This document shows, piece by piece, positions 34,276 to 57,659 of a stretch of 64,000 nt of DNA. Within the stretch, counting starts at the first letter, position 1, and each line of letters begins with the position of its first letter. Source of the stretch: Aphrocallistes beatrix (taxonomy: Eukaryota > Porifera > Hexactinellida > Sceptrulophora > Aphrocallistidae); the NCBI GenBank assembly GCA_963281255.1, contig OY725495.1:2914001-2978000 (forward strand). Direction: 5' to 3'. Made by a program: the position numbers and the translations under genes. The notes under the pieces are model-generated. The model had not been told where the DNA came from. It was given only the letters and a program-made list of their open reading frames with translations, and did not search any database.

Positions 34276-34279
34276 TTAG

Positions 34280-34976: not shown

Positions 34977-37190
34977 TCAATCCCAGTTCTCATCATCCTC
35001 AGCCGTGGGGGGCACTGAACTATTAAATCCAGTGTTGATGGGGTCTCCGAACGATTGACTCCTGAATCCACCGGAACCCCCCTTAAAGTTTTTTTTTCTT
35101 CCTCCCCCTCCTTGCCTGCGATCTGTTCCTCTGAAATTCCCTCCAACAGCTCCGTATCCTGTACCGATCGTGCTCTCTACTATTTCTTCTAGGAAGGTAG
35201 GCACGTCTTGTTCTGAGTCGGACAAGACCTTGATTAGACTCCTGGCGATCGGAGTATCTTTTGATGTGTCGAAAAAGGAAGTGGCAAGACATACATGTCC
35301 GATTCGTCCTGTCCTGCCTATTCTGTGAACGTATTGAGAGATATCTGTCGGCATATCGAAATTGACCACGTGGTTAACCTTAGGGATGTCTAAGCCTTGA
35401 GCAGTGACAGAGGTCACGACTAGAACTTGCGTTTTTCCTGTTTTGAATGCGTCTAGCACTTCTTCCCGTCCTCTCTGCTGTCGCGCCCCGTGAATCATGG
35501 TAGTCGAAAAATTCTCTTGAGAGAGATACGTTGCTAGAAAATTAGCTTGTCGTTTGGTTTCAACAAAAACTAACACTTTATCTTCCGGTTTGCTGCGCAG
35601 GATTTCAGTTAACTTTTCTTTCTTCTTTAGAGCCTCTACACACACAATCTTCTGTACAATATCGTTGGCTGGGCCTCCTATCTTCCCTACTGTGAGGAAG
35701 AGGTAGTCATTGAGAAAGTCTGCTGCGAGCCTTTGAAATTCTTCTGGGAGGGCAACAGAGAACATGAGTATCTGCCTGTCACTCTTCTGACACATGTCAA
35801 ACTCGTGCACTATCTTCTTCAACTCAGGAATGAAACCCATGTCCAGAAAAAGATCTGCCTCGTAGAAGACAAGGAACTTCACCTTGTCTAGCCTCACTTT
35901 TCCCCTAGTCATGAAGTCGATTAGTCGTCCTGGGGTTCCAACTAAAACGTGGCAACCTTTCTCTAAGTTTCTCAGCTGGTAGCCAGCTGAAGTTCCACCG
36001 TAAGCTACGACCGGATCGATAATCGTGGAGTAGGATAACTTTCTAGCTTCGTGGAAAATCTTCAACGCTAGCTCCCGCATAGGAGTGACTATCAACGCAG
36101 TAGGATGTGCGGTGCCGGGGTCCATGCTTGCCTCCTGGTACAGCCCCTTGCTCAGCATGAGGGACAGGATGGGCAAGAGGAAGGCGGCGGTCTTGCCGGA
36201 CCCTGTCTGAGAGCATCCCATCAGGTCTCGTCCAGAGAGGATGGCGGGGATCGCGTACTTCTGGACTGGAGTGGGCTCGGTGTATCCTGCTTTCGAGACG
36301 TTCTCTGAAATCTTTTCAGAGAGACGCGCCTGACTGAAGGAGGTGATGTGCTGTGTCGGGTCGCGCCCTGTCAGCTGCGCAGGGATATTTTCGTACTTGC
36401 TGAAATTGATCCCTTTCGTGACGTTGACGAATATGTCCCCTTCCTGGTCTGAAGGAGTTGGAGGGATGTAAGGTTCTGGCCTCCACCGACCATCAAATCT
36501 CCCTCTCCCGCAGTCCCCAGAATCGTCATCTCTTCCCCCGCCATGTTCAAGACTGTGTCTACAAACTTCCCTGACAGGTTCCCCTTTCTTCTTGTAGTCT
36601 AGTTTTCCGATTATCCTGATTCCTCCCGTCTCACTAAGTTTTATCTCCAGCTCTTCATCCCATTCCAGCTCCAAACTTTCCATTCTAGCCTCAGCTGCCT
36701 CCAGACTCGCTTCCAGCTCTCTGATGCGGGAATTTAGTGGTGCGATGCTTAACTCCAAAGCTTCGTGGCTTTCATTCTCTTTCAGAACGGACATGATACT
36801 CTCTTTTGAGATAGAGAGCTGTTGGATCTGATTCCTAACCTCCTCCCACTCGTAGCTAGCCACCAGCTGGTCCAGCTCTGACAGCAGAGCCGCTTCTCTC
36901 TCATGCAGCACTTGGTGAGAGCTGAGGAACCTGGCTCTTATCTCTCCTCTCACTCTCTGCGCCTGAGACAGGAATGGTTCACTTTCTGACTCACTCAAAC
37001 TCGCCGTTATGCTTATGTGGCTGAGAGGATAGAAGACACAAAAGAACGCTAACCAAGTGTCATCATTTGCAAATAATAATTTGTAGATAAGCCATGAATT
37101 ATAATACATCGTGACAGGTGCATGTTTGTACAGTAAAGCATGTGGAAGTTGTGGGGGCAGCGCATTTGTGGGATGTCTGGATGCGAACAT
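34977..37190 (-). CDS. DDX4-like: Vasa/DDX4-type DEAD-box helicase ORF with damaged catalytic motifs (block A)
   Basis: Intact single-exon ORF; residues below count from a GTG at 37202, and the first ATG is codon 5. Residues 69-195 form a coiled coil, then an RG-rich linker and a complete two-domain helicase (about 255-660) with a Vasa-style acidic tail ending DDENWD. The Q motif (PTPVQ), motif I (SQTGSGKT, 331-338), TPGRL and HRIGRTGR (626-633) are intact. Motif II is YEAD (447-450) in place of DEAD, motif III SVA in place of SAT (482-484), motif Ia PMREL in place of PTREL, and motif V AQGLD in place of ARGLD. ATP hydrolysis coupled to RNA unwinding is unlikely. The start used by copy C (MASLSES) is ACG here (37005-37007), so translation would need the upstream ATG at 37190. 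Vasa proteins act in germ-cell and stem-cell RNP granules. This is either a pseudoenzyme or a young pseudogene. Confidence 0.85.
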   Translation of the reverse strand: MFASRHPTNALPPQLPHALLYKHAPVTMYYNSWLIYKLLFANDDTWLAFFCVFYPLSHISITASLSESESEPFLSQAQRVRGEIRARFLSSHQVLHEREAALLSELDQLVASYEWEEVRNQIQQLSISKESIMSVLKENESHEALELSIAPLNSRIRELEASLEAAEARMESLELEWDEELEIKLSETGGIRIIGKLDYKKKGEPVREVCRHSLEHGGGRDDDSGDCGRGRFDGRWRPEPYIPPTPSDQEGDIFVNVTKGINFSKYENIPAQLTGRDPTQHITSFSQARLSEKISENVSKAGYTEPTPVQKYAIPAILSGRDLMGCSQTGSGKTAAFLLPILSLMLSKGLYQEASMDPGTAHPTALIVTPMRELALKIFHEARKLSYSTIIDPVVAYGGTSAGYQLRNLEKGCHVLVGTPGRLIDFMTRGKVRLDKVKFLVFYEADLFLDMGFIPELKKIVHEFDMCQKSDRQILMFSVALPEEFQRLAADFLNDYLFLTVGKIGGPANDIVQKIVCVEALKKKEKLTEILRSKPEDKVLVFVETKRQANFLATYLSQENFSTTMIHGARQQRGREEVLDAFKTGKTQVLVVTSVTAQGLDIPKVNHVVNFDMPTDISQYVHRIGRTGRIGHVCLATSFFDTSKDTPIARSLIKVLSDSEQDVPTFLEEIVESTIGTGYGAVGGNFRGTDRRQGGGGRKKNFKGGSGGFRSQSFGDPINTGFNSSVPPTAEDDENWD

Positions 37191-37439
37191 GCAAACTTTC
37201 ACAGACTAGCCTAGAGAGATATTTTCTAATACGGTTAAACATCGCTAGGCGATTCAAAATTAGAAAATTGTGAAAAAGTAAGCATTTTGAAATAGGAAGG
37301 TTGAAATTCGGTATTCCATACCAAAAAGTATCCCAGAAGTCCTCCTAGGAATATTTCAAACCCAAAAACCCCGCACAATTCTGAAGAGTATTTTTAAAAA
37401 AAATCAAACCTAAAATTTGAAGCTCCGATCTTGATTTCA

Positions 37440-37970
37440 GCTGACGCACTGGCTATCTGAAACAGAGCCAGCAGAGTCTGCTTCCTCCAGCTTATGCTGC
37501 TGCTTCAAGCAGATGCAGCCCCATCAGAGACCAGATATTATTTTTGTACTGCTTCAGATCCTCTCGGTAGACAGATTCAGAAGACTCAGCAGCGTTCCAG
37601 ACTCGAGCACTGCAAAGCACCGAGTACATGTCTGGTTGGAATCAACCATGACCAAGGTGCATTATACTTCACAGATTGCAATCACGTTTTACTGCGAGAC
37701 GAAGTTGTTCGATTGGGGTCGTACAAGTTATTTAACATGCATCGTTGAGCTAAAGAATAATTCACGTTCTTTTTCAGCTTGAGCTTGCTTTTTCCCAAAG
37801 CTGCAAACGCTACTCCCCGTGCATACCGTGCCATGACTACGGAGCTAGGACAATCCTTCTTGCTCTCATTTATTGGACGATTAATGATGTCTTCCCATTA
37901 GGTAGCGCCTTCTCAGGCGTAGCAGATAACTCCATTGTATAGTAATGGCAGATACCAGGATGTATATCAC
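37440..37970 (-). pseudogene. TPR-protein C-terminal remnant (block A)
   Basis: The minus strand shows, across several frames, pieces such as YNAPWSWLIPTRHVLGAL and VYREDLKQYKNNIWSLMGL, which match the C-terminal part of a TPR-repeat family best known to me from bacteria (pattern WGWxxPxRHALGALLLExG...VYREDLxxxPxNxWSLxGL). Stops and frameshifts interrupt it. The same gene's upstream portion survives at 48190-49095 in block B, in the same position relative to the helicase-like ORF. The two together show that the duplicated unit once held a helicase-like gene followed upstream by a TPR gene. Confidence 0.7.
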
Positions 37971-37977
37971 CTTCCAT

Positions 37978-38120
37978 TTCATAATTTCTGTGTCAGGGAT
38001 CCAGGTCGTTTCCTAGTTATTTATGTGTAAAACACATAATACATACATCCTACATACAGGAGTAGGTCCACCTGGCTAAAATATGTAGGAATCTTACAAC
38101 GACATTTACAGGGAGAGGGA
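37978..38120. repeat. Block A segment also present, split, in block B
   Basis: The run from CTGTGTCAGGGAT to ATGTAGGAATCTTACAA recurs at 51176-51257 and continues at 52513-52570. In block B a 1.25-kb element (51258-52512) separates the halves. This shows that the duplication extends beyond the TPR remnant. Confidence 0.75.
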
Positions 38121-38155
38121 TGGGTGAGTATTTGTGTTTCAATTACAAAACATAA

Positions 38156-38760
<605 letters not shown>

Positions 38761-38767
38761 ATATATA

Positions 38768-39356
38768 TCCTTACTATTAAAACTCAATTAATGTTTGTGT
38801 ATATATCCTTACTATTAAAACTCAATTAATATATCTCTGTAACGAATTGATTGAAGAAACTGCCTGGTGTAGAAGGCTGATTTTTGGCATGTAGGAGTCT
38901 TTTGGCTATGGCTCCACTAAGTTCTGACCTCAGACGAAAATGTCGACTCATCATGGAATTATGACGTCATTCTCACCTTTTTATAATTAGAAATTTCAGT
39001 TTTTCGACCATAACTCAGCCATTTTAAGTGATAGAAGGCTGAAATTTTAATAGAATGTGTATATTAATATACCTCACATATGATGTAACTATCATCAAAA
39101 AATGATGACTCATCACTCTGTGATGACATCATCATTACACATCAAAAATTTGACAAATTCGGTGATTTTTCGTGCGATATCGATTATAATAGTAGGACAG
39201 ACGTATTTAGAGATGTTATCTCCCCTATAATTAATGAATGTGACCCTAGGCGCCCGTAGGGCGCCTCCGGCGGACACAGTGTCCGCCAGCCGCGCAACGC
39301 AAGCAAGCGAAGCTCGCTTGTATATATAAATATTAATCGAGTTTTAATTGTAAGGA
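38768..39356 (+). repeat. CRE repeat, copy 8, with inverted terminus at both ends
   Basis: Starts TCCTTACTATTAAAACTCA (also repeated at 38807), carries the core with one TGACGTCA (near 38962), a decayed TGACATCA and a TGACTCA, then the hairpin. Beyond the hairpin it ends with the inverse terminus TTAATCGAGTTTTAATTG...AAGGA. Some copies have this extra terminus and others stop at the hairpin. Confidence 0.85.
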
Positions 39357-39640
39357 TAATTTATTGCTATCGAAAAAGTGAGTGTCTCGAATTAGATCTT
39401 ACAAAAGCTGAGGACATGTGACGTTAAACATGTCTGGGATAATTTAGGTTTAAAGATGTCAAATTCTAAATAAAGCTAATATTCTGAAGCTATTTATAGA
39501 GATTTCTTAATTTAATTTATTTTATATTATAAATAGAGTACATACTCATTTTCCATTGAGCAGAGTATTGGTTTACATTCACATTCATAGTCTCTGTTAC
39601 TTGTACTTATATACTGAGTTCGATTCGGAAGAGAATCAGA

Positions 39641-41279
39641 ATGCAGCCAATCAAGTGTGTCGTGGTTGGAGATGGGTGAGTTGCTTAGTAGTGAGTGTAG
39701 AGTTTGTGTCTCATCACACCTGTCCCTACTGCCAGAAGTCTCCTAGGCTAGGAGTTCCCCCGTTGGGTTAGATGGGGGGTATAAGATCTGGGGAGGGACA
39801 CTTAACACTAGGATAAGGTGTTAATAATAATTCCTTGAGTTTGAAGTTTGCAACCGCTTGCATTTTGTCGTTAAAATGTTGTGTATACATTCTAATACGT
39901 TAAATGATAACATTCCATCCTTCCAGAGCGGTTGGCAAGACCTGTCTCATCACAACCCATCTCACCGATAAGTTCCCAAGCGGGTACGTGCCCACTGTAT
40001 TCGACAATTCCCATCAACCCGTCACGGTGGACGGATGTTCAGTCGGCATCGGGATCTGGGACACAGCTGGACAAGAGGACTACGACGCGCTAAGACCTAT
40101 TTTCTACCCCCAGACAGACGTGTTCCTCATCTGCTTCTCTCTCGACTCCCCCTCTTCCTTCCAGAACGTTAAATGGAAGGTAATAAACGCACTGCAGCTA
40201 AAGTACCTTCTCAATGATTCCTGTTTGTTTGTTTGTTTGTTTGTTTGTTTGTACAGGATTGATTGAAGATGTATACTCATTTTCGACTGATAAGATTTAT
40301 TTGTTTGTTAATTAAACGAAACTTCACACCTTGCCAAAAGAAGTGACGAATTGTACTAACCAATCAAATTTTAGTATTTTATACTACAGCTATGTGTGTA
40401 ACTATACGAACACACAATACATGCAATCAAAGTCATAATAACCATTTGAGGGAAAAGCGGGACAATTCCACTTGTGGAACGTTTTCGCGGGACATAACTT
40501 TCAACATATGTCCGAAAGCGGGACAGTTGGCAAGTTTGTAGTAACTACGCCAGTACAGCAATTCCCACGGGATAAGCTATTGCAATGCTTTCCCTAGAAA
40601 TCCCACGGCAATTCTGTTGTTTAATATTTACCGTAAACTGGGGCGACTTTGGCCCTAAGAGGTGACTTTGTCCCACAATAGCAATTTTAATAAAATATAC
40701 TCAAACTTAAAATATTGCGGTTTAAATACGTTCGGATATATTGAGAGTTTCATTCAACATATTAGCAATGTGATTACATTGATTCATCAGTTTGAGTGTA
40801 TTTTATTAATATTGCTATTGTGGGACAAAGTCACCCCAGTCTACGGTAGGACAAATTATTTAAGAACTTTTGTCAGTCTCTGGAATTGTTTAGCGAGGTA
40901 TCTAAGATGCTAAATGCCCCATAGCTTCCCTAGATTTGAATCTAGGGCTTAGGAATTTGAACCTAACAAACATTTCACTGTGTAGTGGTATCCAGAGGTG
41001 TCGCACCATTGTCCTAACACCCCCATCATCCTAGTGGGGACCAAGCTGGACCTGAGAGACGATGCGGAGATGGTGCAGAAGCTGAGGGACAAGAAGCTAG
41101 CGCCTATCTCCTACGCACAGGGACTCAGCATGATGAAGGAAGTGAGAGCTGTCAAGTACCTCGAATGCTCTGCGCTCATTCAGAAAGGACTGAAGACAGT
41201 GTTCGATGACGCGATAAGAGCTGTGATACAGCCGAGGAAGGACGCGGGTAGCAGCAAGAAGTTCTGTAGTCTCATTTAA
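39641..41279 (+). CDS. RAC-like: Rac-like small GTPase, three exons, divergent
   Basis: Exons 39641-39675, 39927-40179 and 40986-41279 join to 582 nt, 193 residues plus stop. Donors are GTGAGT and GTAATA; acceptors end CCAG and GTAG. The product starts [17 protein letters not shown] (P-loop) and continues with YVPTVFDN (switch I), [14 protein letters not shown] (switch II) and [10 protein letters not shown] (base recognition). A short Rho-type insert follows. It ends CSLI, a CAAX box whose final Ile is compatible with geranylgeranylation. The length matches Rac (192). It should be a membrane-anchored switch for actin control. Compared with canonical Rac it is divergent after the P-loop ([24 protein letters not shown]). 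A polyadenylation signal AATAAA lies at 41413-41418. Intron 2 holds a (TTTG)n run at 40220-40252 and a MITE. Confidence 0.93.
40631..40846. mobile_element. MITE, 216 bp, CCGTARACTGGGG ends, in Rac-like intron 2
   Basis: Inverted arms of about 60 bp: left CCGTAAACTGGGGCGACTT, right AAGTCACCCCAGTCTACGG. TA stands on both flanks. The arms continue inward through CCCACAATAGCAAT. The TA duplication suggests the Tc1/mariner/pogo group. Confidence 0.85.
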
Positions 41280-41412
41280 CAGAACGGATGATTGTAAATT
41301 TGTATTTATATGCAGTACTGTGATTAGTGATGAAATGATGGATTGTTAAATCTATCCAGGAATTCTCGGTTGAGACAATTCTATACAGTGGACATAATTG
41401 CAACACAATTTG

Positions 41413-41418
41413 AATAAA
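41413..41418 (+). terminator. Polyadenylation signal AATAAA of the Rac-like gene
   Basis: AATAAA lies 134 bases after the stop codon of the Rac-like gene and just before a CRE-repeat copy begins at 41460. Confidence 0.55.
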
Positions 41419-41459
41419 CCATGGATTATACAGGAAATTCCTAACTGCTGTTAATCTAA

Positions 41460-41925
41460 CAAGCGCGGTTCGCTTGTTTGCGCTACGCGGCTGGCGGACA
41501 CTTTGTGTCAGCCGGAGGCTCCCTTCGGTCGCCTGGGGTCACTTTGATTAATTATATGGTAGATGACATCTCTAAATAAAAAATTTCGGTGCGTAATGAT
41601 GACGTCATAACCGAGTGATGAGTCATCGTTTTTTGATGATAGCTGCAGCATATGTGAGGTATATTAACCCTAATTGGACTTGGAATGTTGAAGTGAAAGT
41701 GAAAGTTAATTGAAAGTGAAAATGAAAGTGGGAATTTTCTATTTATACCTTTGACCCCAAGTCCAAGTAGGGTTAATATACACATTCTATTAAAATCTCA
41801 GCCTTCTATCACTTAAAATGGCAGAGTTATGGGCGAAAAACTGAAATTTCTAATCATAAAGAAGGTGACAATGACGTCATAATTCAATGATGAGTCGACA
41901 TTTTCGTCTGAGCTCAGAACTTAGT
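41460..41925 (-). repeat. CRE repeat, copy 9, with a nested piggyBac-like MITE
   Basis: Minus-strand copy from the hairpin (CAAGCGCGGTTCGCTTG) to the CTGAGCTCAGAACTTAG part of the core. It has two intact TGACGTCA octamers (near 41602 and 41874) and TGAGTCA motifs. A TTAA-flanked 105-bp element interrupts it. It starts about 40 bp past the Rac-like polyadenylation signal. Confidence 0.85.
41668..41772. mobile_element. piggyBac-like MITE, 105 bp
   Basis: TTAA is duplicated at 41664-41667 and 41773-41776. The ends CCCTAATTGGACTTGG and CCAAGTCCAAGTAGGG are inverted with few mismatches. TTAA targets and CCC/GGG ends are the hallmark of piggyBac. The interior has GAAAGTGAAAGT repeats. Confidence 0.85.
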
Positions 41926-41929
41926 TTGT

Positions 41930-42605
41930 TTGTTTGTCCGAATTGATTGAAGAATTGGCAAGTCGTGGAGATACGAAAATTGGCATGTAGGTGTCAAATG
42001 ATGAATCTAGGATTAAGTTCGGGAATCTAAGCGAAATTTTCACACCTCTGCAAAAAAATGGAAAACAATTTTTTACACCTTTTCTATACAAAATATATGA
42101 CTACACTATCACAATAGAAATCATTGTACAAATACGACACGACAATAGATCGTCATTGTTAATACTTCAAAGCCACAACTTATGTTTGATATCTTAAATA
42201 TATTATAGTGTATTTCAATAAAAAAGATCAATATAAATTATTTGTTTACTTTTGTTTATATTAGATACATAAAGTAAACAAATCTCAAAAATATGCTAGA
42301 AACTTGCGACACCTAGAGAAGGGATAGGTGAGAAAGAAATGAAAATATCAAGAATACTCTCAAACTAATAATCATGAAACTAAAACATCATTTAAAAGAA
42401 TTAAGATCATCACAAATTTTGTATTGCTATTACTAGAATTCTAATTTTAAAATCATTGAAGATTTGTGTTTGTATGAATCGTATTTCTACAATTGAAACT
42501 AACACATAGGAAATAGTGACATGTTTGTTCGTTTTTTGCTTGATCGTAGAAAAGAAAACATTTTTATAATTGGAATACTTACCTATGATCATTTAACCTT
42601 GACAG
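41930..42605. other. No gene recognised
   Basis: AT-rich sequence with a (TTTG)n trace at its start and short open frames of no recognisable family. Confidence 0.45.
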
Positions 42606-42609
42606 AACA

Positions 42610-45234: not shown

Positions 45235-45260
45235 CTTAAATAATCTCTGTGACTGAAACA

Positions 45261-46340: not shown

Positions 46341-46629
46341 GTTTTAAATTCGACATTTTATTTTTTCTGATGAGTCAGCGTCGTTGAAGTAAGAATAAGT
46401 CCGAAAAATGAAGTAGGAATAAGTTCGAAAACCTATGAAGGGAGATGCGGAATAAGTTCGAAAGTTGAAGTAGGAATAAAACCTAAAATTGGAGGGAGAG
46501 CGAAAGTGAGCATTTTGGAGAGTGATGCGACCCTTGTGAACTCGTATCAATGGAATGAATATTTCAATAATAAGCATTAAATAATTCTCTCATAATCTCA
46601 CCCTAGCTTCTGCTAATAGTGTTAAACTT

Positions 46630-47072
46630 GAAACGATAGGTTTTGGATTGGCATAGTGTGAACTAAATATAATTAATTTTTAAATAAAGATTGTGAAAAA
46701 ATGGTGCGTCATAGAAAAAATCTGCAACTGCAGAAGGGGTTAAAATTGTCTTCTGTACCTTAAGCGTTAAAAGATGATAGGATTGTATTCATGGATTCTG
46801 AGTTCACACCCTGTCTGGCCATTCAAAGGTAGTATCTCATTTTGTCCTTCAGTGTCGGATCGAAAATCGAACACTTTGTTGCACACCCCATACTCTCAAA
46901 GCACCTTTTCCTAGAATTTTAGAGTATAATCTCTTATGGTTTGGCCATACGGAAAATCACCGTAAGAAAAATGTGAACAAATATTATAGCCACTGACTAT
47001 AGTATAGTCGGCAAACTAAAAAAATATACGCAACAAAAAGTATCAGGGCTGGAGTTTGGGTCGCTCAGGTGC
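46630..47072. repeat. Block B 3' flank, homologous to 34296-34850 and 54270-56200
   Basis: The flank shares TGCGTCATAGAAAAA, CTGTACCTTAAGCGTTAAAA-like words and AGTTTGGGTCGCTCAGGTGC with blocks A and C. At about 47090 it joins directly to the repeat region of the truncated helicase copy. The helicase core, tail and intervening sequence present in block A are therefore deleted here. Confidence 0.75.
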
Positions 47073-47852
47073 TCAAATCTGAATAGGCCGGAATCCAGAA
47101 TCGTTATCTCTTCCCCAACCAAAACTTCTCCCGCCTCCGGAATCGTCATCTCGTCTCCAACCAAAACTTCCCCCGCCATGGTCAAGACTGTGTATACAAA
47201 ATGCCCTGACAGGTTCCCCTTTCTTCTTGCAGTCTTGTTTTCCGATTATCCTGATTCCTCCCGTCTCACTAAGTTTCCTCTCCAGCTCTTCATCCCATTC
47301 CAGCTCCAAACTTTCCATTCTAGCCTCAGCTGCCTCCAGACTCGCTTCCAGCTCTCTGATGCGGGAATTTAGTGGTGCGATGCTTAACTCCAAAGCTTCG
47401 TGGCTTTCATTCTCTTTCAGAACGGACATGATACTCTCTTTTGAGATAGAGAGCTGTTGGATCTGATTCCTAACCTCCTCCCACTCGTAGCTAGCCACCA
47501 GCTGGTCCAGCTCTGACAGCAGAGCCGCTTCTCTCTCATGCAGCACTTGGTGAGAGCTGAGGAACCTGGCTCTTATCTCTCCTCTCACTCTCTCCGCCTG
47601 AGACAGGAATGGCTCACTTTCTGACTCACTCAAACTCGCCGTTATGCTTATGTGGCTGAGAGGATAGAAGACACAAAAGAACGCTAACCAAGTGTCATAA
47701 TTTGCAAATAATAATTTGCAAATAAGCCATGAATTATGATACACTGTGACAGGTGGATGTTTATACAGTAAAGCATGTGGAGCCTGTGGGGGCAGCGAAT
47801 TTGTGGGATGTCTGGATGGCAACTGCATGATAAAGATGAATGCAAACTTCAT
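47073..47852 (-). pseudogene. DDX4-like: Truncated Vasa-like copy: coiled coil plus two RG/FG repeats (block B)
   Basis: Open frame almost identical to block A over the coiled coil (SLSESESEPFLSQAERV onwards) and carrying two GGGxSFGWxRDxDS repeats, then ending in an unrelated FRPIQI tail. The helicase core and the acidic tail are missing, cut by a deletion that joins the repeats to the 3' flank. As in block A, the start ATG of block C is ACG here (47640-47642). The upstream frame stays open to an ATG at 47852. Expression of a 260-residue coiled-coil protein is possible but I consider this a remnant. Confidence 0.8.
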
Positions 47853-48042
47853 CTTTATGATATTTTTAATTTGTACATGATGCAATCATTGATGAACCAT
47901 TATCATCTGATCATGAAATATTTATAAAGAAAGATGTTGTGATGCACGTTGTGGTGCATAATAAACATTCATTGATGACTGAACATTAACACTCATCGTA
48001 GAATAGTTTATGTGCATCTAGAGCAGTATTGTCGTTGACCTC

Positions 48043-48198
48043 CAGTCAGGGTAGCTTATTTTGAACCCGGAACATTCGTTTATGAACTATACTTCTGTCT
48101 CAATTTCATTGTTTACGTAGGATATGTATTGAGTCGAGTTCGCATATATAATTAATAAATGAAATCTCTCTATTATGAACAATCTTTTTGGTCCCCGG
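48043..48198. mobile_element. Decayed pogo-like MITE fragment
   Basis: Starts CAGTCAGGGTAGCTTATTT and includes GTCGAGTTCGC and TATTATGAACAATC...TTGGTCCCC, clearly related to the element at 18558-18743 read from both sides. No intact right end was found. Confidence 0.6.
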
Positions 48199-49095
48199 AT
48201 TGCAATCACGTTCACTGCGAGACGAAATTGTTCAAAGCCTCCTTGAAATTCCCTTTACGATATTCAATATCACCGTTCAGCACAGCTTCCGCTATATCTA
48301 GAATTCCATTACCTGGTCGATTGGGGTCGTAAAGTTATTGAACATGCATCAGTGAGCGAAAGAGCTATCATTTCGGACTAATGAAATAAGGTTAGGCCCA
48401 ATCTGAGATTTTAAATCTTCGGCACATTTCATCGCTACAGTATATTTCCCATTAAACATCGCTGTCCATGTAAGGAAGTGATAGTTGTGAAGCTGGTAGT
48501 AGGTGTAGAAGCCATACCACTCTCCCCTGGCAGAAATATAATTATGATCCGCCGCAATTGCCAGTTGGTTCACTTCAAAGGCCTGTTTGTACTATCCCAC
48601 CCATGCCCATACTCTCCATAACGACGCCGCAACACATCTGCAGCAGTAGCGCCCTCAAGCGGAGCAGATAACTCCATCGTATGGATGTATTATGGCGGAG
48701 ACCAGGATGCACAGGGGATAGAGCCCCAGAGCCTTTTCCAACACTTGCACCAGTTCTAAAGTTTCCGGGATTGTAGGCTTAATATTAGGAGGCTTAGTCC
48801 ACAGTTTCCATGGTGCTAACTTCATTAGAGATTCCGCGAAAAAGAACGCTACATTCCTCCTCATGCTTCTGATAGACAGGACGCATGCATTGACATAATT
48901 CATGATCCGAGTGTGAAGGGCACAGAACCGACTGGGGAACAGAAACGGTGCAATTGTGCCTCAATCAAATCAAATTCCCATTATTTGAGGGTCATGCTAT
49001 TTGATAGGGCCTGTGCCGTTCTGGATTCTTCTCACCCTACGGTACGGCATGCTCGAACCCTTCTGGGTTATTGTAATTGCCAGCGTGACTGTAAG
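48190..49095 (-). pseudogene. TPR-protein remnant, N-terminal and middle part (block B)
   Basis: The minus strand carries, in shifting frames, HAGNYNNPEGFEHAV (near 49070), LMKLAPWKLWTKPPNIKP, VLEKALGLYPLCIL, then AFEVNQLAIAADHNYISA, FYTYYQLHNYHFLTWTAMF and IAEAVLNGDIEYRKGNFKEA. This is the order of a TPR family with signature YxxHNxHFLxxAAxMxGR and GEIxYRxGxYxEAFxHL, which I know mainly from bacteria and some invertebrates. Frameshifts and stops (for example TGA after MESMGMGG) break it. Its C-terminal continuation survives in block A at 37440-37970. Confidence 0.75.
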
Positions 49096-49099
49096 CAAT

Positions 49100-50335
49100 A
49101 AAATAATGCGCCAGCTTAGTTGTGGTTGAAATTAAATATATGAATGAGGCTTTTACCAATCCATTCTAAACATTCTGGAGAAGATTGGTTACTTTGTTAC
49201 ACATCACTGCTAAATCTTTATCTGGGACTTCGGACATCGTTCAGTTATCTTGTAATCTGTCAGTTGATTATTAATATAAAAATTAAGCAGGTTACATTCT
49301 TGCCAGGAGAGTCATTATAATAGTGGGGAATAATATAGATGCGTTATTTCAGGACTCTCAACTCTCACGATTTCCTCGCCGTTATATGAGAGACCATTAC
49401 TCACTATAATCTCACAATCTTGATCCACTGTTCGCAATACAATTTTACTATATCTCACGATTCGGTTAGATTACAGGTTGAGAGGCCTGGCACTGCTGGT
49501 TATTTATAGTAATCGACCGGGATCAATATTTTGGCCAGGACAGGGAACATTGGGGGCTACAGCCCCCAGTCAGGGAAAATTTAATAATCTGTCGGGGAAA
49601 GAACTGGAAGCAAAATAGAAAAGAATTTGTACTCTAAAGCTCTTTATTTGTGTAAGGAGTCGCCAAGAATTTCCACCTTTTCAACATTTTAGGGGCATGT
49701 CTAATTTACGGGACGGCATCCCGTCCCGTAAATTAGGTATGCCCCTTTTTAGCAATATTATTTTGTATATTATACTTTCACTCAATCGCCAATAATTTCA
49801 GCGAATTGCCATAATTGCATGCTCTTTGCTAGTATCAACAGCTGAGTGTAAACGGAATTTTTGCTCAATGCGGCTGATAAAGAATGATCTCCGCTCAGCA
49901 ATGAAACAAGACCGTTTGGAGAGCTTATTAGTGCTAGGAATTCATCGAGATTGAAGCAGCAAGCTTGACTTAGACATTGTTGTGATAAATAGATTCCCAG
50001 CAAAGTTTCCTGAATGTAGAATTTCCCTATAAGCATTAAAATAAATGTTATGAATGGATATATTCTAGGATATATAAATAGACTATTTTGGCATTTCAGA
50101 GGACACTCTAATTTAGCCCCTCTGTCGGAGACCTTAGGCCCCCCGTCAGGGAATTCCTGGAACCGCCCCTGACCGAGAATATAATTTTTACCGGGACTGG
50201 GTTTAAAATCGGGACTAAAACCGGGATTGCAGTTTTGCTTGGTCCACGGAGCGAAGAATGGAAAGAATAGACAATTTAGCAGTTTTAGTATATTAATATT
50301 TTCAGTAGTTCGTAGCCTAATTTACAAATTAGATA
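49100..50335. other. No gene recognised; two small repeats
   Basis: A palindromic MITE lies at about 49691-49745 (AGGGGCATGTCTAATTTACG ... TATGCCCCTTT), related to the ends of the element at 60594-60900. A hAT-like region runs from about 49532 (CAGGACAGGGAACATTGGGG) to about 50172, where AGGAATTCCTGGAACCGCCCC ends it in inverted fashion; its boundaries are unclear. An 84-codon frame at 49782-50036 lies inside and resembles nothing. Confidence 0.5.
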
Positions 50336-50338
50336 TTA

Positions 50339-51104
50339 CTTAGGGCATTCAAAAAGTTCTCATCCCAAATCTGTATCTCAAATGATAGTGAAAATATGAT
50401 ATTTTCTATTTGTCTATTGTATTCCTTAGGGGATCAGCTTCCAATTTGTATATTGGTTTATTTTACAAGGACAATTGTTGTGGTTCCTACATTATATTTT
50501 TGTACATCGGTTTAAGGTAGTCCCTTTGAACGTGATTTTTCGGGTTCCCTTTGATATATTTCAGTTCTGAGCAAATTTAGATTAAAACTGATCCCTCCAT
50601 CGAATTCTACGCATCAACTAACATATAGATTGAATTTTCTGAAGTATTATAGTTTGAGGCTGAGGGAATACTATGTTTTGAAGTGGTTTACTACCATTTT
50701 TGTCCCACTTTTTGAGTGGCGAAAATTGACAAAAAATCCACTAAAAGTAGCATGATATTTTTTCAACACGAGCAATACTATTGAACACCTCCCGTTTACT
50801 TTTTCACATTGGTTCTTAATTATTTAACCTTTTAATGACCTTATTCTACGATTTTCACAACTTTTATTCTCCAAATTTAGTTTTAAGCCATTTTCAATGG
50901 GGAGATTCCAACTTTTCGACACTACCCTAAACCGATGCACAAAAAATCTAATGTAGGAACCACAATAATTGTCCTTTTAAAATAAACCAATATATAAATT
51001 GGAAGCTGATCCCCTAAGGAATACAATGGACAAATCGGAAATATCCTATTTTCACTATCATTTGAGATACAGATATGAGATGAGAACTTTTTGAATGCCC
51101 TAAG
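50339..51104. mobile_element. Mariner-type fold-back MITE, 766 bp
   Basis: Inverted arms of about 185 bp, with CTTAGGGCATTCAAAAAGTT on the left mirrored on the right and TA flanking both ends (50337-50338, 51105-51106). The outer 20 bases nearly equal the left end of the mariner at 1501. The non-palindromic centre has no ORF. Confidence 0.9.
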
Positions 51105-51175
51105 TAGATATAGGATTACATCTACAATCCACATGAAAATGAAAATTTTGAAATTAATATTACCTTTCATAAATA

Positions 51176-51257
51176 CTGTGTCAGGGATTCCAGTTGTTTC
51201 CTAGTTATATATGTGTAAAACACATAATACATACACATCCTACATACAGGAGTGGGT
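51176..51257. repeat. Block B segment homologous to 37984-38062
   Basis: Reads CTGTGTCAGGGATTCCAG through ACATACAGGAGTGGGT. Its continuation in block A is found at 52513-52570, after a 1.25-kb insertion. Confidence 0.75.
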
Positions 51258-52512
51258 CTGTCAGGTCAAAATTGGTCCGGGGGGGACCAGTTTTGGCAGC
51301 CAAAACTGGTCCCCCTTGGCTAAATTTGGTAACCCGGACCAGTTTGGCTGCCAAATCTAGTCCGGGGGACCATTTTTAGTGCAGTTTCTGCAGAGAGATG
51401 CCCCTATGGCAAGGACGGTGTACCACATCCGTCCATATGTATGTACTTAGGGCGGTCAGAAAGTTCTAATCAGTGCTATCATATACTCTTATTGTACCTT
51501 ATTGGATCGATATTGAAGCTTGAATTTACTTCTTAACACATTCACAAGTGATACCAATTTACAAAATCAAAATCTAGAGAAAACTCTTTGTATACCACTT
51601 CCTATATATTGTGTCGCTTGAGCCACCGTGTAAAATTATGGCCACAAATCACCCGTTCACCACTCGTCCTTCCCTAAAAAGTAGGCTCCATTATCAGATA
51701 TTTGAATCTGAGAGAGTATCATTCCCATCAACTTCCTAAGATTGATTTGTATTTGAGCATTCGTATCGCTTAGTAATGCCCTTGTAATGTCGTTTACTCT
51801 TGAGGGAAGGTCGGGTGGTTTGTGGCCATAATTTTACACGGTGGCTCAAGCGACACAATATATAGGAAGTGGTATACAAAGAGTTTTCTCTAGATTTTGA
51901 TTTTGTAAATTGGTATCACTTGTGAATGTGTTAAGAAGTAAATTCAAGCTTCAATATCGATCTAATAAGGTACAATAAGAGTGTATGATAACACTGATTA
52001 GAACTTTCTGACCGCCCTAAGTATGTATCTCCGTACGCTGCGAAATTTGAGTTTTCAAAAATTTAGTAGTCCCGATGTATTACAATATTCATATCTCACG
52101 TGCCAAGTTAGCTGCACTATCGGTCTACCGACAGACATTTTTAAAAAAATGAATAATGCTAACTTGAGCCATGATAAAAGGGGGCGCAGCTTTGAAGTTT
52201 GCGGGACATGGCGGGACGCGATAGTGAAACTTCTACATACTTGTAGAATCAAAAAAAAGTGGACAGAATAAAACTTCATATAAAAGCGAAACATTCATGA
52301 AAATTAGCTCAACAGAAGAATGCAAAAATCGGGACGTCCCGTCAAAAACGGGCAGTTGGCATGTATTGAATATACTCCCTATTAATAGAGACCTAGAATG
52401 ATTGTAATGTCATCACATCCTATGAGGAGAGGACTACTTTAGTGTACGTAATTAAATGACACAAAATTTAACCCGGACCAATTTTTGCCCCGGAGCATTT
52501 TTTTCGTGACAG
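51258..52512. mobile_element. Composite insertion with CTGTCA ends, 1255 bp
   Basis: Comparison with block A shows that this whole stretch is inserted in block B. It starts CTGTCAGGTCAAAATTGGTC and ends GACCAATTTTTGCCCC ... TGACAG, inverted with gaps, and carries GGTCCGGGGG runs. It includes a complete mariner-type MITE (51446-52021), a fragment of the GGAGCTGCACT repeat and a copy of the GCGGGAC repeat (52153-52340). The terminal style matches 14682-15404. Confidence 0.7.
51446..52021. mobile_element. Mariner-type fold-back MITE, 576 bp
   Basis: Arms of about 230 bp, starting CTTAGGGCGGTCAGAAAGTT and mirrored at the right end, flanked by TA (51444-51445, 52022-52023). A 12-bp or so indel is the main difference between the arms. 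The terminal TTAGGGC..TCA.AAAGT is shared with 50339-51104 and with the mariner at 1501. Confidence 0.9.
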
Positions 52513-52574
52513 GTCCACTCTGGCTAAAATATGTAGGAATCTTACAATAACATTTACAGGGAGAGTAGAGTCTA

Positions 52575-53315
52575 AAAAATTACAGTCAACGTATTAAAAG
52601 TGTACATATATTTACCAGTAAAGTTCATCAGTAGGGTGTAGCCTAACTAAAACAGGAATTGTGTAGGTCATACGGAGTCTTGAGGATGAAGTTATACCTT
52701 GAGAGGGGAGACCCGATACTGCATGGTCTCAAGTCACCTGCATTCGCGGTGAAATATGAATTTTTCGCAAATACTTAAATCTAATAGTCATATATGCTGA
52801 TATATTTCATTATAATCAGCTCGAACTATTTAATATATAATTATGGAATGTTTTGCAAACAAGAACAATTTAATTTGCATCGAAATACTTTAACAATTTA
52901 GGAAGTGGCGTTTCAGTGGGAATTTTTTTTAAAAAAATTGTTCGGGACATGGCCAGGATCTCACATCTCCGACGCAGATAATTCTTAATATAAATAAGAA
53001 GCTAAGATTTGGAAAATACTAATACCAAAACTGGGGCAGGGCAGACTCTGCTCGCAAAATCATAAACTTGGTTGCTATGCTGCCTAGTGATTAAGGTAAC
53101 CGCATTCATTCTAAAATCTACATCTCTCGCAAATACATGAACTGTATATGTTATAAACTGATAAAATTAATTATTAGTTTTTTTGGTCTGTCTTTATAAA
53201 CATGGATCATTTAAAATACTTCTAAAGACACAAAATTCAGGAAAACGAGTTTCATCGAGAATAAATTTTAAAATTTGCCATGGTCCCCTAGCATCTCACA
53301 TCAATAATTCATTAT
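52575..53315. other. No gene recognised
   Basis: AT-rich sequence between blocks B and C without open frames or repeat structure that I could define. Confidence 0.45.
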
Positions 53316-53318
53316 ATA

Positions 53319-53418
53319 CAAGCGCGCTTCGCTTACTTGCGCTGCGCGGATTGCAGACACTGTGTGTCTAAGACTCCCACATACCAAAAATCAGCTTTCT
53401 GTGCAATCAATTCGCTAT
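53319..53418 (-). repeat. CRE repeat, copy 10, internally deleted
   Basis: Minus-strand hairpin (CAAGCGCGCTTCGCTTACTTG) followed at once by the 5' core (AGACTCCCACATACCAAAAA, CAATCAATTCGCTATACG), so the middle of about 380 bp is missing. Confidence 0.75.
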
Positions 53419-53426
53419 ACGTATAT

Positions 53427-53446
53427 ATTTACTATTAAAACTCGAT

Positions 53447-53521
<75 letters not shown>

Positions 53522-54087
53522 GCATATATATATATATATGTGTGTGTATATATCTGTAGCGAATTGATTGAAGAAACTGCCAGGCGCAGAAAGCTGATTT
53601 TGGTATGTGGGAGTCTTTTGGCTATGGCTCCACTAAGTTCTGAGCTCAGACGAAAATGTCGACTCATCATGGAATTATGACGTCATTATCACATTTTTTA
53701 CAATGAGAAATTTCAGTTTTTCGACCATAACTCAGCCATTTTAATTGATAGAAGGCTGAGATTTTAATAGAATGTGTATATTAATATATCTCACATATGA
53801 CCATAATCAAAAAATGATGATACATCACTCTGTTATGACGTCATCATTACGTATCAAAATTTTAAAAATTGACAAATTTGGTGATTTTTCGTGTGATATC
53901 GATTACAACAGTAGGACAGACGTATTTAGAGGTGATATTATCTACTTTATCATTAATCAATGTGAGCCTAGGCGCCCAAAGGGTGCCTTCGGCGGACACA
54001 AAGTGTCTGCTAGCCGCGCAACGCAATTATATGAAGCGCGCTTGTATATACAAACACACAAACATTAATCGAGTTTAATAGTAAGGA
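53427..54087 (+). repeat. CRE repeat, copy 11, at the edge of block C
   Basis: Starts with a diverged 5' terminus (TTTACTATTAAAACTCGATTA), followed by a (TA)n microsatellite at about 53450-53540, the core with two intact TGACGTCA octamers (near 53678 and 53837), the hairpin and the inverted terminus ending AGTAAGGA. It is homologous to copy 5 in block A and lacks that copy's 137-bp insertion. Confidence 0.85.
53455..53540. repeat. (TA)n microsatellite
   Basis: About 40 TA units with a few interruptions (ACGCATA, GTGTGTG). It lies in the usual microsatellite position of the CRE repeat. Open frames that spell IYIYIY here are artefacts. Confidence 0.95.
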
Positions 54088-54513
54088 TAATATTGAATCT
54101 TACTCAGTAATAATTATTGTGTGACTATAATTCTGCTCTATATTACTCAATAGTTACTAAGTCTAAAACTTGTTATTGGTTGTGAACTCATATGGAATGA
54201 ATATTTCAATAATAAATATTTAGCTATCTCTCATTATCTTACACAAGCTTCTGGTAATTAGTGTTAAAATGAAAACAATAGAATTTGGATCGCATTGAGT
54301 AGTGTGAAATGAATAATGAATTTTAAATAAGGATTGTTAAAAAAGTATTCTGTACCTTAAGCATTATAAGGTTGCATTCATGGAGTCTGAGTTCACACCA
54401 TATCTGGCCACTCAAACGTGTCTCATTTTGTCCTTTGGTGTCGAATCGAAAATCGTACACTTAGGTGCACACTCCATACTCTCGAAGCATCTATTCCCAG
54501 AAATTTCAGACTA

Positions 54514-55846
54514 CAGGGTGTCAGATAATTATTTTCAAATTTTAATTTGATTATATGCGAAGAAGTAGATGATGCAGGCATATATCAATCATTTTATGTG
54601 TTCATTTATGATAATATATTAATAATCAATTTTATAACCATCTCCATCTATTAAGAGACGGCATCTTTTAGGCATAGAAGACCAGTAAGGCTCTAGGAAT
54701 ACAGGATCGATATTGCTCCAAATGTCATTAAGCTCACTTTTAAGGGCCGAAATGTTCTTTGGACTGCGTTTGGACAGTTCGTACTTGATCCAACCAAAGA
54801 GATTTTCTATTGGATTAACATCTGGACTTTGGCTTGGCCACTCTAACCTCCTATTAGGCATATTTTCGTTCATCCAAGCCTTTGTTGCCTTCGAGGTGTG
54901 CTTTGGATCGTTGTCCATAACCAAAACCCACTCTTTATTGTGAAATACTTTTGCTTGTGCTAATAAATGAACCTCCAATATCTTTGTAAATAGGGACGAG
55001 TCAAGATTTTGAGTGAATATGCATAAAGGAAATGTTCCTACGGACGAAAATGCAGCCCAGATGTGTATTTTCTGTGTATGTTTGCAAGTGGGTTGCAGGC
55101 GAATTTGACCTTTTTTGGTCCACATTCTGACACGACCTCTTGATAGCCATATAGAAGCTTCATCAGCAAAAATTGAGTGTTCCCATCTTCTTGACATATT
55201 GCACTTAGCCCATTCTACCCTATAAAGGCGATTCTTTTCGCTTAACATCGGAATTTTTATTGGATACGGCTTCGAGTACTCAAGGTTACGAAGACATCTG
55301 TGTACTGTATCTCGAGAGATAATCACTGGTGATTTTGATGTCAATGTTCGTATAGAGGTAGTAGGATCCAAGCTGATGGATTTCGCGACAAATTTCTTTA
55401 TTTGAGGAATAAGTTTAGAGGGTCTACCTGCGCCTTTCTTGTGTTTAATCCCAACTCCTGATTTAATGCTAGAATTTACATTGTAAACAGTCCTGGTAGA
55501 CACACCTACAAGTCGACTAATTTCTTCAATCGAGTGCTTTTTACCATCTAATAAGATTCGTATGTGAATGCGCTTTGATAGTTGAGACATAATAGAACAA
55601 ATTATCTAGCAAATAATTATAAAAATATCAATAAATAAAAATCAATAAAAAAAGTCGCGTCATCATGATGACGTAACGATTTTCAACCTAAAAATCAAAT
55701 TGTCCACTTAAATGAATGATTTTAAATTTAGTCAAAGCCTACTTAGGTTCATTTCCACCAGCAAAATGCAGCTAGTCATAGTTGCTCTAGGTTCTGAAAC
55801 CATGAATGATAAAACAATGTTTTGAAAATAATTATCTGACACCCTG
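54514..55846 (-). mobile_element. Tc1-like transposon, 1333 bp, intact, with known empty site
   Basis: The TIRs CAGGGTGTCAGATAATTA... match perfectly for 26 bases at both ends, and TA is duplicated (54512-54513, 55847-55848). Block A carries the unoccupied site (TTTCAGACTATATTCTCTT, about 34527-34545). Block C therefore acquired the element after the duplication. One complete transposase gene lies inside. Confidence 0.97.
54619..55590 (-). CDS. Tc1-type transposase, full length
   Basis: 323 codons with an ATG start and no breaks. An N-terminal HTH (IEEISRLVGVSTRTVYNV) and a GRPSK hook precede a second HTH-like region, and together they would bind the TIRs. The catalytic core shows FADEASIW (first Asp), VLVMDNDPKHTSK (second Asp) and SQSPDVNPIENLFGW (Glu). 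By my count 35 residues separate the second Asp from the Glu, one more than in Tc1 itself. All three acidic residues are present and the TIRs are intact, so this copy may be active. It catalyses cut-and-paste transposition at TA sites. Confidence 0.95.
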   Translation of the reverse strand: MSQLSKRIHIRILLDGKKHSIEEISRLVGVSTRTVYNVNSSIKSGVGIKHKKGAGRPSKLIPQIKKFVAKSISLDPTTSIRTLTSKSPVIISRDTVHRCLRNLEYSKPYPIKIPMLSEKNRLYRVEWAKCNMSRRWEHSIFADEASIWLSRGRVRMWTKKGQIRLQPTCKHTQKIHIWAAFSSVGTFPLCIFTQNLDSSLFTKILEVHLLAQAKVFHNKEWVLVMDNDPKHTSKATKAWMNENMPNRRLEWPSQSPDVNPIENLFGWIKYELSKRSPKNISALKSELNDIWSNIDPVFLEPYWSSMPKRCRLLIDGDGYKIDY

Positions 55847-55848
55847 TA

Positions 55849-56354
55849 TATTCTCTTATGGTTTGGCAATACGGAAAATCACTGAGAAAAAAAAAGCCAC
55901 TCATTTCAGAAGTTGGCCACTATTCGTATTATAGCAGTAGGCAAACTAAAAATATACATAACAAAAAGTATTAGGGCTCCATTATTTGATGTTTATATAA
56001 ACAGAAAAATAAATCAAGATAAATCTAAACTGGTGAGTTAACGAAAATATAAATGTAAGTTCGGTCCTGGTTTCAGCTACAATTATATTGTTATGATTGT
56101 TTCATTTCTAAGAGCCATATTAACCATAGTAACTATGAGCAAATATCAGGAGCCAGTATGGATAATTGAGTAATTTTGAGTCGCTCAAGTGCTCAAATCT
56201 CACTAGGGGATATGGAATAAGTATTGAGGAAAGAATTGGTATACACCTCGAGCTTTCTTTAACGCTAATTATTAAGTTTAACGTATGTGGGCGTTTCCTA
56301 CGTTTTCAAAAAAGCAGTACTCGTATAGCCTGTTGTTGTGACAGCTGTATGCTA
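55849..56354. repeat. Block C 3' flank
   Basis: The stretch continues the homology to block A interrupted by the Tc1 element. Compare TATTCTCTTATGGTTTGGCA here with TATTCTCTTATGGTATGTC at 34536, and AGTCGCTCAAGTGCTCAAAT here with 34820. No gene is supported. Confidence 0.75.
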
Positions 56355-57554
56355 TCAATCCCAGCTCTCATCATCCTCAGCCGTGGGGGGCACTGAACTA
56401 TCAAATACAGTGTTGAAGCCTATCAATCCATTCCCGAAATCGTCATCTCGTCTCCCACCGAAATTTCTCCCGCCCCCGGCATTGTCATCTCGTCTCCCAC
56501 CGAAATTTCTCCAGCCCCTGGCATTGTCATCTCGTATTCCACCGAAATTTCTCCCGCCCCCGGCATTGTCATCTCGTCTCCCACCGAAATTTCTCCAGCC
56601 CCTGGCATTGTCATCTCGTATTCCACCGAAATTTCTCCCGCCCCCGGCATTGTCATCTCGTCTCTCACCGAAATTTCTCCCGCCCCCGGCATTGTCATCT
56701 CGTCTCTCACCGAAATTTCTCCCGCCCCCGGCATTGTCATCTCGTCTCCCACCGAAATTTCTCCAGCCCCTGGCATTGTCATCTCGTATTCCACCGAAAT
56801 TTCTCCCGCCCCCGGCATTGTCATCTCGTCTCTCACCGAAATTTCTCCCGCCCCCGGCATTGTCATCTCGTCTCTCACCGAAATTTCTCCCGCCCCCGGA
56901 ATTGTCATCTCGTCTCCCACCGAAATTTCTCCCGCCCCCGGAATTGTCATCTCGTCTCCCACCGAAATTTCTCCCGCCCCCGGCATTGTCATCTCGTCTC
57001 TCACCGAAATTTCTCCCGCCCCCGGAAGCATCATCTCGTCTCCCACCGAAACTTCTCCCGCTTCTGGAATCGTCATCTCTTCCCCCGCCATGGTCAAGAC
57101 TGTGTATACAAAATGCCCTGACAGGTTCTCCTTTCTTCTTGTCGTCTAGTTTTCCGATTATCCTGATTCCTCCCGTCTCACTAAGTTTCCTCTCCAGCTC
57201 TTCATCCCATTCCAGCTCCAAACTTTCCATTCTAGCCTCAGCTGCATCCAGACTCGCTTCCAGCTCTCTGATGCGGGAATTTAGGGGTGCGATGCTTAAC
57301 TCCAAAGCTTCGTGGCTTTCATTCTCTTTCAGAACGGACATGATGCTCTCCTTTGAGATAGAGAGCTGTTGGATCTGATTCCTAACCTCCTCCCACTCGT
57401 AGCTAGCCACCAGCTGGTCCAGCTCTGACAGTAGAGCCGCTTCTCTCTCATGCAGCACTTGGTGAGAGCTGAGGAACCTGGCTCTTATCTCTCCTCTCAC
57501 TCTCTGCGCCTGAGACAGGAATGGCTCACTTTCTGACTCACTCAAACTCGCCAT
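56355..57554 (-). CDS. DDX4-like: Core-less Vasa-like protein: coiled coil, RG/FG repeats, acidic WD tail (block C)
   Basis: An intact ORF of 399 codons from the ATG at 57554 (MASLSESESEPF), with an in-frame ATG also at 57641. Residues 1-130 are the coiled coil shared with block A (QRVRGEIRARF to EWDEELERKLSE). About 15 tandem 14-residue units of the form GGGRNFGGRRDDNA follow, encoded by a 42-bp minisatellite (about 56440-57080). The end, NTVFDSSVPPTAEDDESWD, matches the tail of the block A helicase. The entire two-domain helicase core is absent, as if deleted between the repeats and the tail. The RG/FG repeats and the terminal Trp-Asp are typical of Vasa ends, and such repeats drive granule assembly. 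A granule-binding protein without helicase activity is possible; so is a non-functional relic. It is the only one of the three copies with a canonical start. Confidence 0.8.
   Translation of the reverse strand: MASLSESESEPFLSQAQRVRGEIRARFLSSHQVLHEREAALLSELDQLVASYEWEEVRNQIQQLSISKESIMSVLKENESHEALELSIAPLNSRIRELEASLDAAEARMESLELEWDEELERKLSETGGIRIIGKLDDKKKGEPVRAFCIHSLDHGGGRDDDSRSGRSFGGRRDDASGGGRNFGERRDDNAGGGRNFGGRRDDNSGGGRNFGGRRDDNSGGGRNFGERRDDNAGGGRNFGERRDDNAGGGRNFGGIRDDNARGWRNFGGRRDDNAGGGRNFGERRDDNAGGGRNFGERRDDNAGGGRNFGGIRDDNARGWRNFGGRRDDNAGGGRNFGGIRDDNARGWRNFGGRRDDNAGGGRNFGGRRDDDFGNGLIGFNTVFDSSVPPTAEDDESWD
56440..57080. repeat. 42-bp minisatellite encoding RG/FG units
   Basis: About 15 units, each close to CGTCTCCCACCGAAATTTC plus TCCCGCCCCCGGCATTGTCAT on the plus strand. 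The unit length is a multiple of three, so unrelated long frames open on both strands (plus 56338-57378, minus 56423-57097). I reject those as genes. Unit variants (TCTCAC, TATTCC) recur in a higher-order pattern. Confidence 0.95.
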
Positions 57555-57659
57555 TATGCTTATGTGGCTGAGAGGATAGAAGACACAAAGGAACGCTAAC
57601 CAAGTGTCATAATTTGCAAATAATAATTTGTAGATAGCCATGAATTATAATACACTGTC

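Follow-up and report, generated by a model that had tools for sequence, protein, structure and literature searches.

The window analysed here is a 64,000-nucleotide stretch of the hexactinellid sponge Aphrocallistes beatrix (contig OY725495.1, positions 2,914,001 to 2,978,000), taken from an assembly of 100.5 Mb in 28 contigs. It lies on the contig that we label C9; other contigs are labelled likewise. On its minus strand lie three related open frames, here called copies A, B and C, each of which begins with a coiled coil and retains a different portion of a gene for a Vasa-type helicase (Table 1). The explanation that we consider likely overall is that a chimera of two gene families arose, was triplicated and lost its helicase, with C the copy likeliest to be still working.

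The three copies have one orientation, a nearly identical coiled coil and shared flanks, as the preliminary description had stated. Self-comparison of the window gave DNA identities of 96% for A and B (36532-37193 and 47167-47827), 97% for A and C (36520-37108 and 57067-57654) and 97% for B and C. The block common to all three pairs comprises the coiled coil and the proximal 5' flank, and the shared 3' flanks are more diverged. At the protein level, the coiled coil of C shares 97% identity with that of B and 96% with that of A. The shared upstream flank extends for about 190 bp in A and B and about 100 bp in C, and it is matched elsewhere by only six pieces of 37 to 64 bp. Downstream, 340 bp of vasa 3' untranslated region (3'UTR) is retained in A and 408 bp in C, with scraps in B (by eye), after which all three copies enter one dispersed repeat of about 360 bp (at least 49 matches in the assembly, these loci included). 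Sharing a dispersed repeat proves little by itself, but the common junction between vasa and the repeat argues for shared descent, and the copies are very probably a triplication of one chimera. The shared junction and flanks thus bear out the earlier proposal of a local duplication of the fusion. The layouts given for the single copies hold for B, which consists of the coiled coil and two FG/GR units without core or tail, and in part for the other two. The core of A is open, but its motifs are damaged and its RG/FG part is a remnant with one FG. Copy C has the coiled coil, the array and the acidic WD tail and lacks the core, with no Pfam family of any kind found in it at an E value of 0.01, but its repeat and tail contain 16 FG and only 3 RG, GR being common instead.

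Table 1. Features of the three copies and their flanks, in positions of the window
Feature	Position	Strand	Description
Copy A, open frame	34977..37205	minus	742 codons stop to stop; coiled coil, then helicase core of Vasa and acidic WD tail
Copy A, changes	34977..37205	minus	motifs II, III and V altered; family start ATG is ACG
Coiled coil of A	36534..37004	minus	N-terminal part of the coiled-coil/NHL family
Vasa-derived DNA of A	34635..36483	minus	helicase core, acidic tail and some 340 bp of the 3'UTR; identity to the C7 vasa 89%
Dispersed repeat adjoining truncated vasa 3'UTR of A	34277..34637	minus	at least 49 assembly matches including this one
5' flank common to A and B, about 100 bp also in C	37006..37193	minus	3'-splice-site-like CTATCCTCTCAG just 5' of the start (by eye)
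Copy B	47073..47885	minus	270 codons stop to stop; coiled coil, two FG/GR units, no core or tail; start ACG
Downstream flank of B	46617..47043	minus	fragment of vasa 3'UTR followed by the dispersed repeat seen in A
Copy C, frame	56355..57644	minus	429 codons stop to stop
Copy C from ATG at 57554	56355..57554	minus	399 codons; coiled coil, FG/GR array (15 units, 14 residues each), acidic WD tail; in-frame deletion of the core
Coiled coil of C	57081..57554	minus	belongs to the coiled-coil/NHL family
42-bp in-frame tandem array of C	56433..57086	minus	akin to the FG/RG repeat of vasa
Vasa tail and 3'UTR of C	55945..56416	minus	88% identical to the C7 vasa
Transposase open reading frame (ORF) in 3' flank of C	54619..55605	minus	DDE_3, Tc3-type helix-turn-helix; sits between two parts of the shared flank

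Judged by sequence similarity, the first ~155 residues of A, B and C are the N-terminal coiled coil of a large family of proteins with a coiled coil and an NHL propeller; demosponges have similar coiled-coil/NHL proteins. A coiled coil of 158 residues, sharing 99% identity with that of C, was used as query against the assembly and gave 631 candidates; 150 of these were scored, all with E values below 1e-15 (A, B and C included; some adjacent matches may belong to a single gene). The query was 61 to 74% identical to the ten best matches beyond A, B and C, which places it within the family. Many of the matches lie within open frames of about 412 codons, and the scored matches are clustered on contigs such as C1, C3, C6, C12, C14 and C17. 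The 30 loci with the best scores yielded 29 frames (none at L020): 21 carried NHL sequence, 3 were A, B and C, and 5 were short and without NHL. The member at L013 has the coiled coil followed by NHL repeats (Pfam PF01436), and both members scanned against Pfam contained NHL and gave no match to RING or B-box. No NHL propeller was found in A, B or C by Pfam scan or by reading of the frames. Wide shuffling of the coiled coil was considered and rejected, no partner other than NHL or Vasa being present in the 29 frames. Two more loci opened from the remaining 120 matches showed the coiled coil followed by NHL-like sequence (by eye), the second being cut by N. Two loci on contig C6 (L033 at 3332835 and L035 at 3322876) hold frames of 147 codons with the coiled coil alone, ending in RPIG, and are possibly spliced or represent a shortened subfamily.

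The best other match to the core of A is a frame on contig C7 that has no coiled coil and spans 899 codons between stops, 837 of them from Met onwards. This C7 gene is 88% identical to A and has canonical motifs and an FG/RG N-terminus, its coding sequence being one open frame. A DNA query with part of it matched C7 itself, A, C, a relic on contig C8 (in two pieces) and two short, weak sites on C12. An acidic C-terminus with Trp-Asp is a mark of Vasa, and this end reads AGDDESWD in C7, AEDDENWD in A and AEDDESWD in C. A small tree placed the genes of C7, A and C12 with insect Vasa, apart from DDX3X and outgroups, with an ultrafast bootstrap of 84. Among solved structures, the best matches of A were BmVLG (444 bits), DDX3X (443 bits) and Vasa (431 bits), and those of the C12 gene were BmVLG (442 bits), Vasa (427 bits) and DDX3X (407 bits). 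Vasa seems to us the better name for the C7-type helicase, though not a certain one. The earlier claim that a Vasa-type gene had been joined to an unusual coiled coil is upheld by the identity to C7 and by the vasa-derived DNA in A and C. Its intact coiled-coil Vasa parent was not found in protein and DNA searches of the assembly, in which the best candidates were scored and a very diverged copy could have escaped; vasa sequence was present only in C7, A, C, the broken C8 relic and the scraps of B. Because the coiled coil belongs to the NHL family and the intact C7 vasa lacks it, A, B and C almost certainly descend from a chimera.

We compared A with the C7 gene over 499 codons and found 113 base differences, no insertion or deletion (indel) and no stop, with synonymous divergence (dS) of 0.138, nonsynonymous divergence (dN) of 0.062 and a ratio (omega) of 0.45. 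The helicase motifs are altered from DEAD to YEAD (II), SAT to SVA (III) and ARGLD to AQGLD (V), so that motif II is without its first Asp, motif III without SAT and motif V without its Arg; motif I shows a single change, AQTGSGKT to SQTGSGKT, and motifs Ib, GG, IV and VI are unaltered. N-terminal RG/FG repeats were not found in A, whose 742 residues include 1 FG and 5 RG and no more than a remnant unit. In all probability, A encodes no active helicase. The divergence lies largely on its side: at the 63 amino-acid differences that could be aligned to the C12 outgroup, the outgroup agreed with C7 at 31, with A at 7 and with neither at 25, and the maximum-likelihood branches were 0.130 for A and 0.0017 for C7. 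Of 395 core sites, 51 were changed in A, with a mean conservation of 0.344 compared with 0.372 overall (P 0.26). When sites were binned by their conservation in nine other helicases, the share changed in A, starting with the most variable bin and ending with the invariant one, was 11/73, 25/168, 6/72, 3/45 and 6/37; for the control pair C7/C12, the fraction dropped from 0.68 to 0.05. In neutral simulations, the probability that A would contain no stop was 0.05 to 0.21. At the indel rate of the C8 relic, 8 to 12 indels were expected (probability of none, 0.0004 or less), an estimate that rests on three gaps per 23 relic-only substitutions and on an assumed 60 to 90 substitutions on the branch of A; the vasa 3'UTR of A, aligned to C7 over 333 bp, shows 11 indel events, one of which falls where the alignment stops. 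These data suggest that the frame of A was selected for much of its past and are no proof of present function. Most likely, A and B are decaying.

The start of the family is an ATG in all seven NHL genes recovered (16 loci were tried with the search pattern) and in C, and is ACG in A and B. Further Met codons in frame are found at -62 and -35 in A, -71 and -63 in B and -30 in C, or at +70. Since a 3'-splice-site-like tract ends just 5' of the start in all three copies (by eye), the upstream Met codons may be intronic. Copies A and B differ at 3/420 positions in the coiled-coil tract and at 14/187 in the 5' flank, a contrast not seen between A and C (9/420 and 2/100) or B and C (8/420 and 4/100). 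The much greater likeness of the A and B tracts points to gene conversion between them, by which A may have received its ACG late; this would reconcile the lost start with the intact frame.

Copy C is, on its sequence, the best candidate for a working gene. Its array comprises 15 units of the RDDNAGGGRNFGGR type and its tail is SSVPPTAEDDESWD. The array is flexible in length and shows no visible amino-acid constraint. Substitutions were counted over the shared coiled coil, as had been put forward earlier as a guide to selection. Up to the residues GEPV, C differs from A/B by 5 synonymous and 2 nonsynonymous substitutions (neutral draw, P 0.023). Copies A and B, with 1.5 synonymous to 8.5 nonsynonymous changes over 156 codons, fit neutrality. 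On the stem of A, B and C, compared with six NHL genes (loci L012, L013, L015, L018, L019 and L022; the search pattern missed 21 of 27 or 6 of 12 of the loci tried), we counted 14 synonymous and 25 nonsynonymous changes (omega about 0.48), a signal that may in part predate the fusion. That C is translated and under selection is a real possibility, to which we would give a little less than an even chance.

A second fusion of coiled coil and vasa lies on contig C8 at 193554-194619 (L052 3555-4620), after two tandem coiled-coil/NHL frames, the first of which is cut by the end of the stretch examined. Its order is a coiled-coil fragment, in-frame Vasa FG/RG sequence, the start of the core, Vasa 3'UTR and the 3' end of an NHL gene; the coiled-coil fragment is 81% identical in DNA to its neighbour, and the NHL 3' end 87% identical to its own. 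Little of the core is left, the frame is broken by gaps of 1, 2 and 4 bases (by eye) within about 366 bp, and on this sequence the fusion is dead. In alignment, its junction lies about 28 residues earlier in the coiled coil than that of C9, and its coiled coil is of a different subfamily; these differences favour two captures over one, and we rejected a single fusion event for both loci. The 3'UTR gives only 1 site that sets C7 apart and 4 sites that group A and C against C7 and C8. The two fusions may have shared a vasa intermediate. Coiled-coil/NHL genes make up about 0.2% of the assembly if there are 150 of about 1.25 kb, or 0.8% if there are 631 (simple arithmetic, with no formal test), and it would be striking for Vasa to have arrived twice, in frame, next to coiled coils from a single family.

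We propose that vasa sequence stripped of the greater part of its 5' end was fused, in frame, to the coiled coil of an NHL-propeller gene. The junction itself is plain in the sequence, and the route may have been either retroposition or DNA copying. Retroposition with a poly(A) tail was considered: no poly(A) tract was seen by eye at the vasa 3' junction, and the vasa 3'UTR at C8 is about 40 bp longer than that of A. The product would have been a chimera of coiled coil, FG/RG repeats, DEAD core and WD tail, which, as the shared junctions show, was then duplicated locally to give A, B and C. Later gene conversion, as the identity profile suggests, would have made the A and B coiled coils more alike. 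Helicase activity was lost differently in each copy: A kept its frame without the catalytic residues, the core of C was removed in frame, and B lost nearly all of its Vasa sequence. The array of C was re-amplified. Copy C may act as a catalytically empty Vasa-like protein, in which the coiled coil would dimerise or oligomerise, possibly with NHL-family partners, the FG/GR array would join RNA-rich germ or stem-cell granules as the N-terminus of Vasa does, and the WD tail may bind the partners of Vasa. The layout of C (coiled coil, regular F/R units with alternating charge and acidic Trp tail) leads us to favour, with low confidence, a role as a scaffold or a competitor of Vasa; a granule role as such seems doubtful. 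Somewhat less likely still is the full sequence of events in which the animal twice put Vasa where the propeller of a coiled-coil/NHL protein belongs and the C9 product then lost its helicase, becoming a scaffold or decoy whose repeats could change in number like those of a minisatellite.

Several observations weigh against this interpretation. Among solved structures, the C7 gene scores slightly higher with DDX3X (509 bits) than with BmVLG (499 bits) or Vasa (DmVasa, 489 bits). The unbroken frame of A sits badly with a copy long dead, and the two middle conservation bins are less changed in it (8% and 7%, compared with 15 to 16%). The selection signal on C consists of seven changes and, when polarised with NHL genes, leaves 3 synonymous and 2 nonsynonymous on C's own branch; strong selection on C was rejected on this ground. 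Over the full 156 codons, the synonymous to nonsynonymous counts are 5 to 5 for B and C and 6.5 to 7.5 for A and C. Against their consensus, 14 units of the C array show 4 synonymous and 19 nonsynonymous changes, a ratio about neutral or above, and the rarity of RG weakens the analogy with DDX4. Two captures, finally, are at odds with six core sites, including the Ala to Ser change of motif I, at which A and the C8 relic agree against C7.

All three copies may instead be relics, a chance chimera having been duplicated with transposon-rich DNA and now decaying, its frames open because they are young. We hold this to be a serious alternative that nevertheless falls somewhat short of an even chance. 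It would account for the missing family ATG in A and B, for changes in A that do not significantly avoid conserved sites, for the neutral pattern between the A and B coiled coils and the unconstrained array of C, and for the frameshifted state of the C8 fusion. It is harder to square with the 1497 bp of A, which contain no indel or stop beside 11 indels in its own 3'UTR and three gaps in the C8 relic, at the probabilities given above for the absence of indels and of stops, and with the excess of synonymous changes in the coiled coil of C.

Two further alternatives ascribe a present role to A. As a selected pseudo-enzyme, it would no longer hydrolyse ATP, would still bind RNA or partners and would compete with Vasa; the intact 499 codons, the unaltered motifs Ib, GG, IV and VI with only one change in motif I, and the retained acidic WD tail would suit such a protein. 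We think it quite unlikely, given changes at 6 of the 37 invariant sites, a branch far longer than that of C7, and an ACG start; the nearest Met codons in frame upstream of it, 35 and 62 codons off, may be intronic. The other alternative is subfunctionalisation, in which an intact coiled-coil Vasa was duplicated and the helicase passed to A and the granule scaffold to C. The core in A and the repeats in C are complementary, and the junction and flanks are shared, which lends weak support to the preliminary description's claim that the parts were partitioned among the copies. That claim otherwise fares badly: with its DEAD, SAT and ARGLD motifs lost, A has little helicase function to share out, the family ATG is missing from A and B, only a remnant is left of B, the array of C is re-amplified, and the assembly yielded no intact parent among the best candidates scored. 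We therefore regard subfunctionalisation as very improbable and retain the reading of a triplicated chimera that lost its helicase.

Chimeric genes arise by capture of a gene fragment, and the copies resemble such genes in the in-frame junction of unrelated genes and in the presence of the vasa 3'UTR without the 5' end; they differ in showing no poly(A) tract (by eye). They resemble Vasa/DDX4 in that a C7-type gene is the source of the core in A and of the WD tail in both A and C, and in that the array of C looks like an amplified unit of the C7 FG/RG repeat; they differ in that the coiled coil replaces most of the Vasa N-terminus, A lacks the catalytic residues and C lacks the core. The coiled coil is that of TRIM-NHL-like proteins, without their propeller, and the two family members scanned lack RING and B-box. 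An excerpt of the review PMC4700675 describes germ granules and PML bodies as seeded by coiled-coil self-association (Caenorhabditis elegans PGL-1/3 and the TRIM protein PML), PGL also having RGG, and the condensation of DDX4 as dependent on regularly spaced FG/RG motifs and charge clusters; an excerpt of PMC9624338 agrees on DDX4. Like PGL-1/3 and PML, C would carry a self-association domain on a granule-forming protein, which we use as a working analogy only and claim no sequence kinship. Vasa appears as a marker in the excerpt of PMC4238977, from which we claim no known TRIM-NHL/Vasa contact. A narrow literature search found no paper on a Vasa/coiled-coil chimera, none combining NHL repeats with a coiled coil in Amphimedon and no title on Vasa copies among those on retrogenes.

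Elsewhere in the window, self-comparison revealed further repeats at 32445-34276, 38490-39360 and 53545-54417. Direct repeats at 38168-38418 and 39907-40156 are 74% identical, the second reading like a fragment of a Rho-type GTPase (by eye). A transposase ORF at 1635-2702 looks mariner-like (by eye), and the ORF at 20387-21664 has a TRAF-type zinc finger just below the Pfam cut-off (26.8 compared with 27 bits). A tandem repeat of about 30 bp at 60602-60859 gives an ORF of repeated FRDGIEKVPN units.

Recurrent fusion of these two families would raise the question of whether coiled-coil/NHL proteins and Vasa already cooperate in this animal. If C is made, it would show, as an experiment of nature, how a Vasa-type repeat and tail behave when a coiled coil clusters them and no helicase is attached. 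Should C prove silent, the locus would remain a clear record of how a chimera was born, converted and left to decay.

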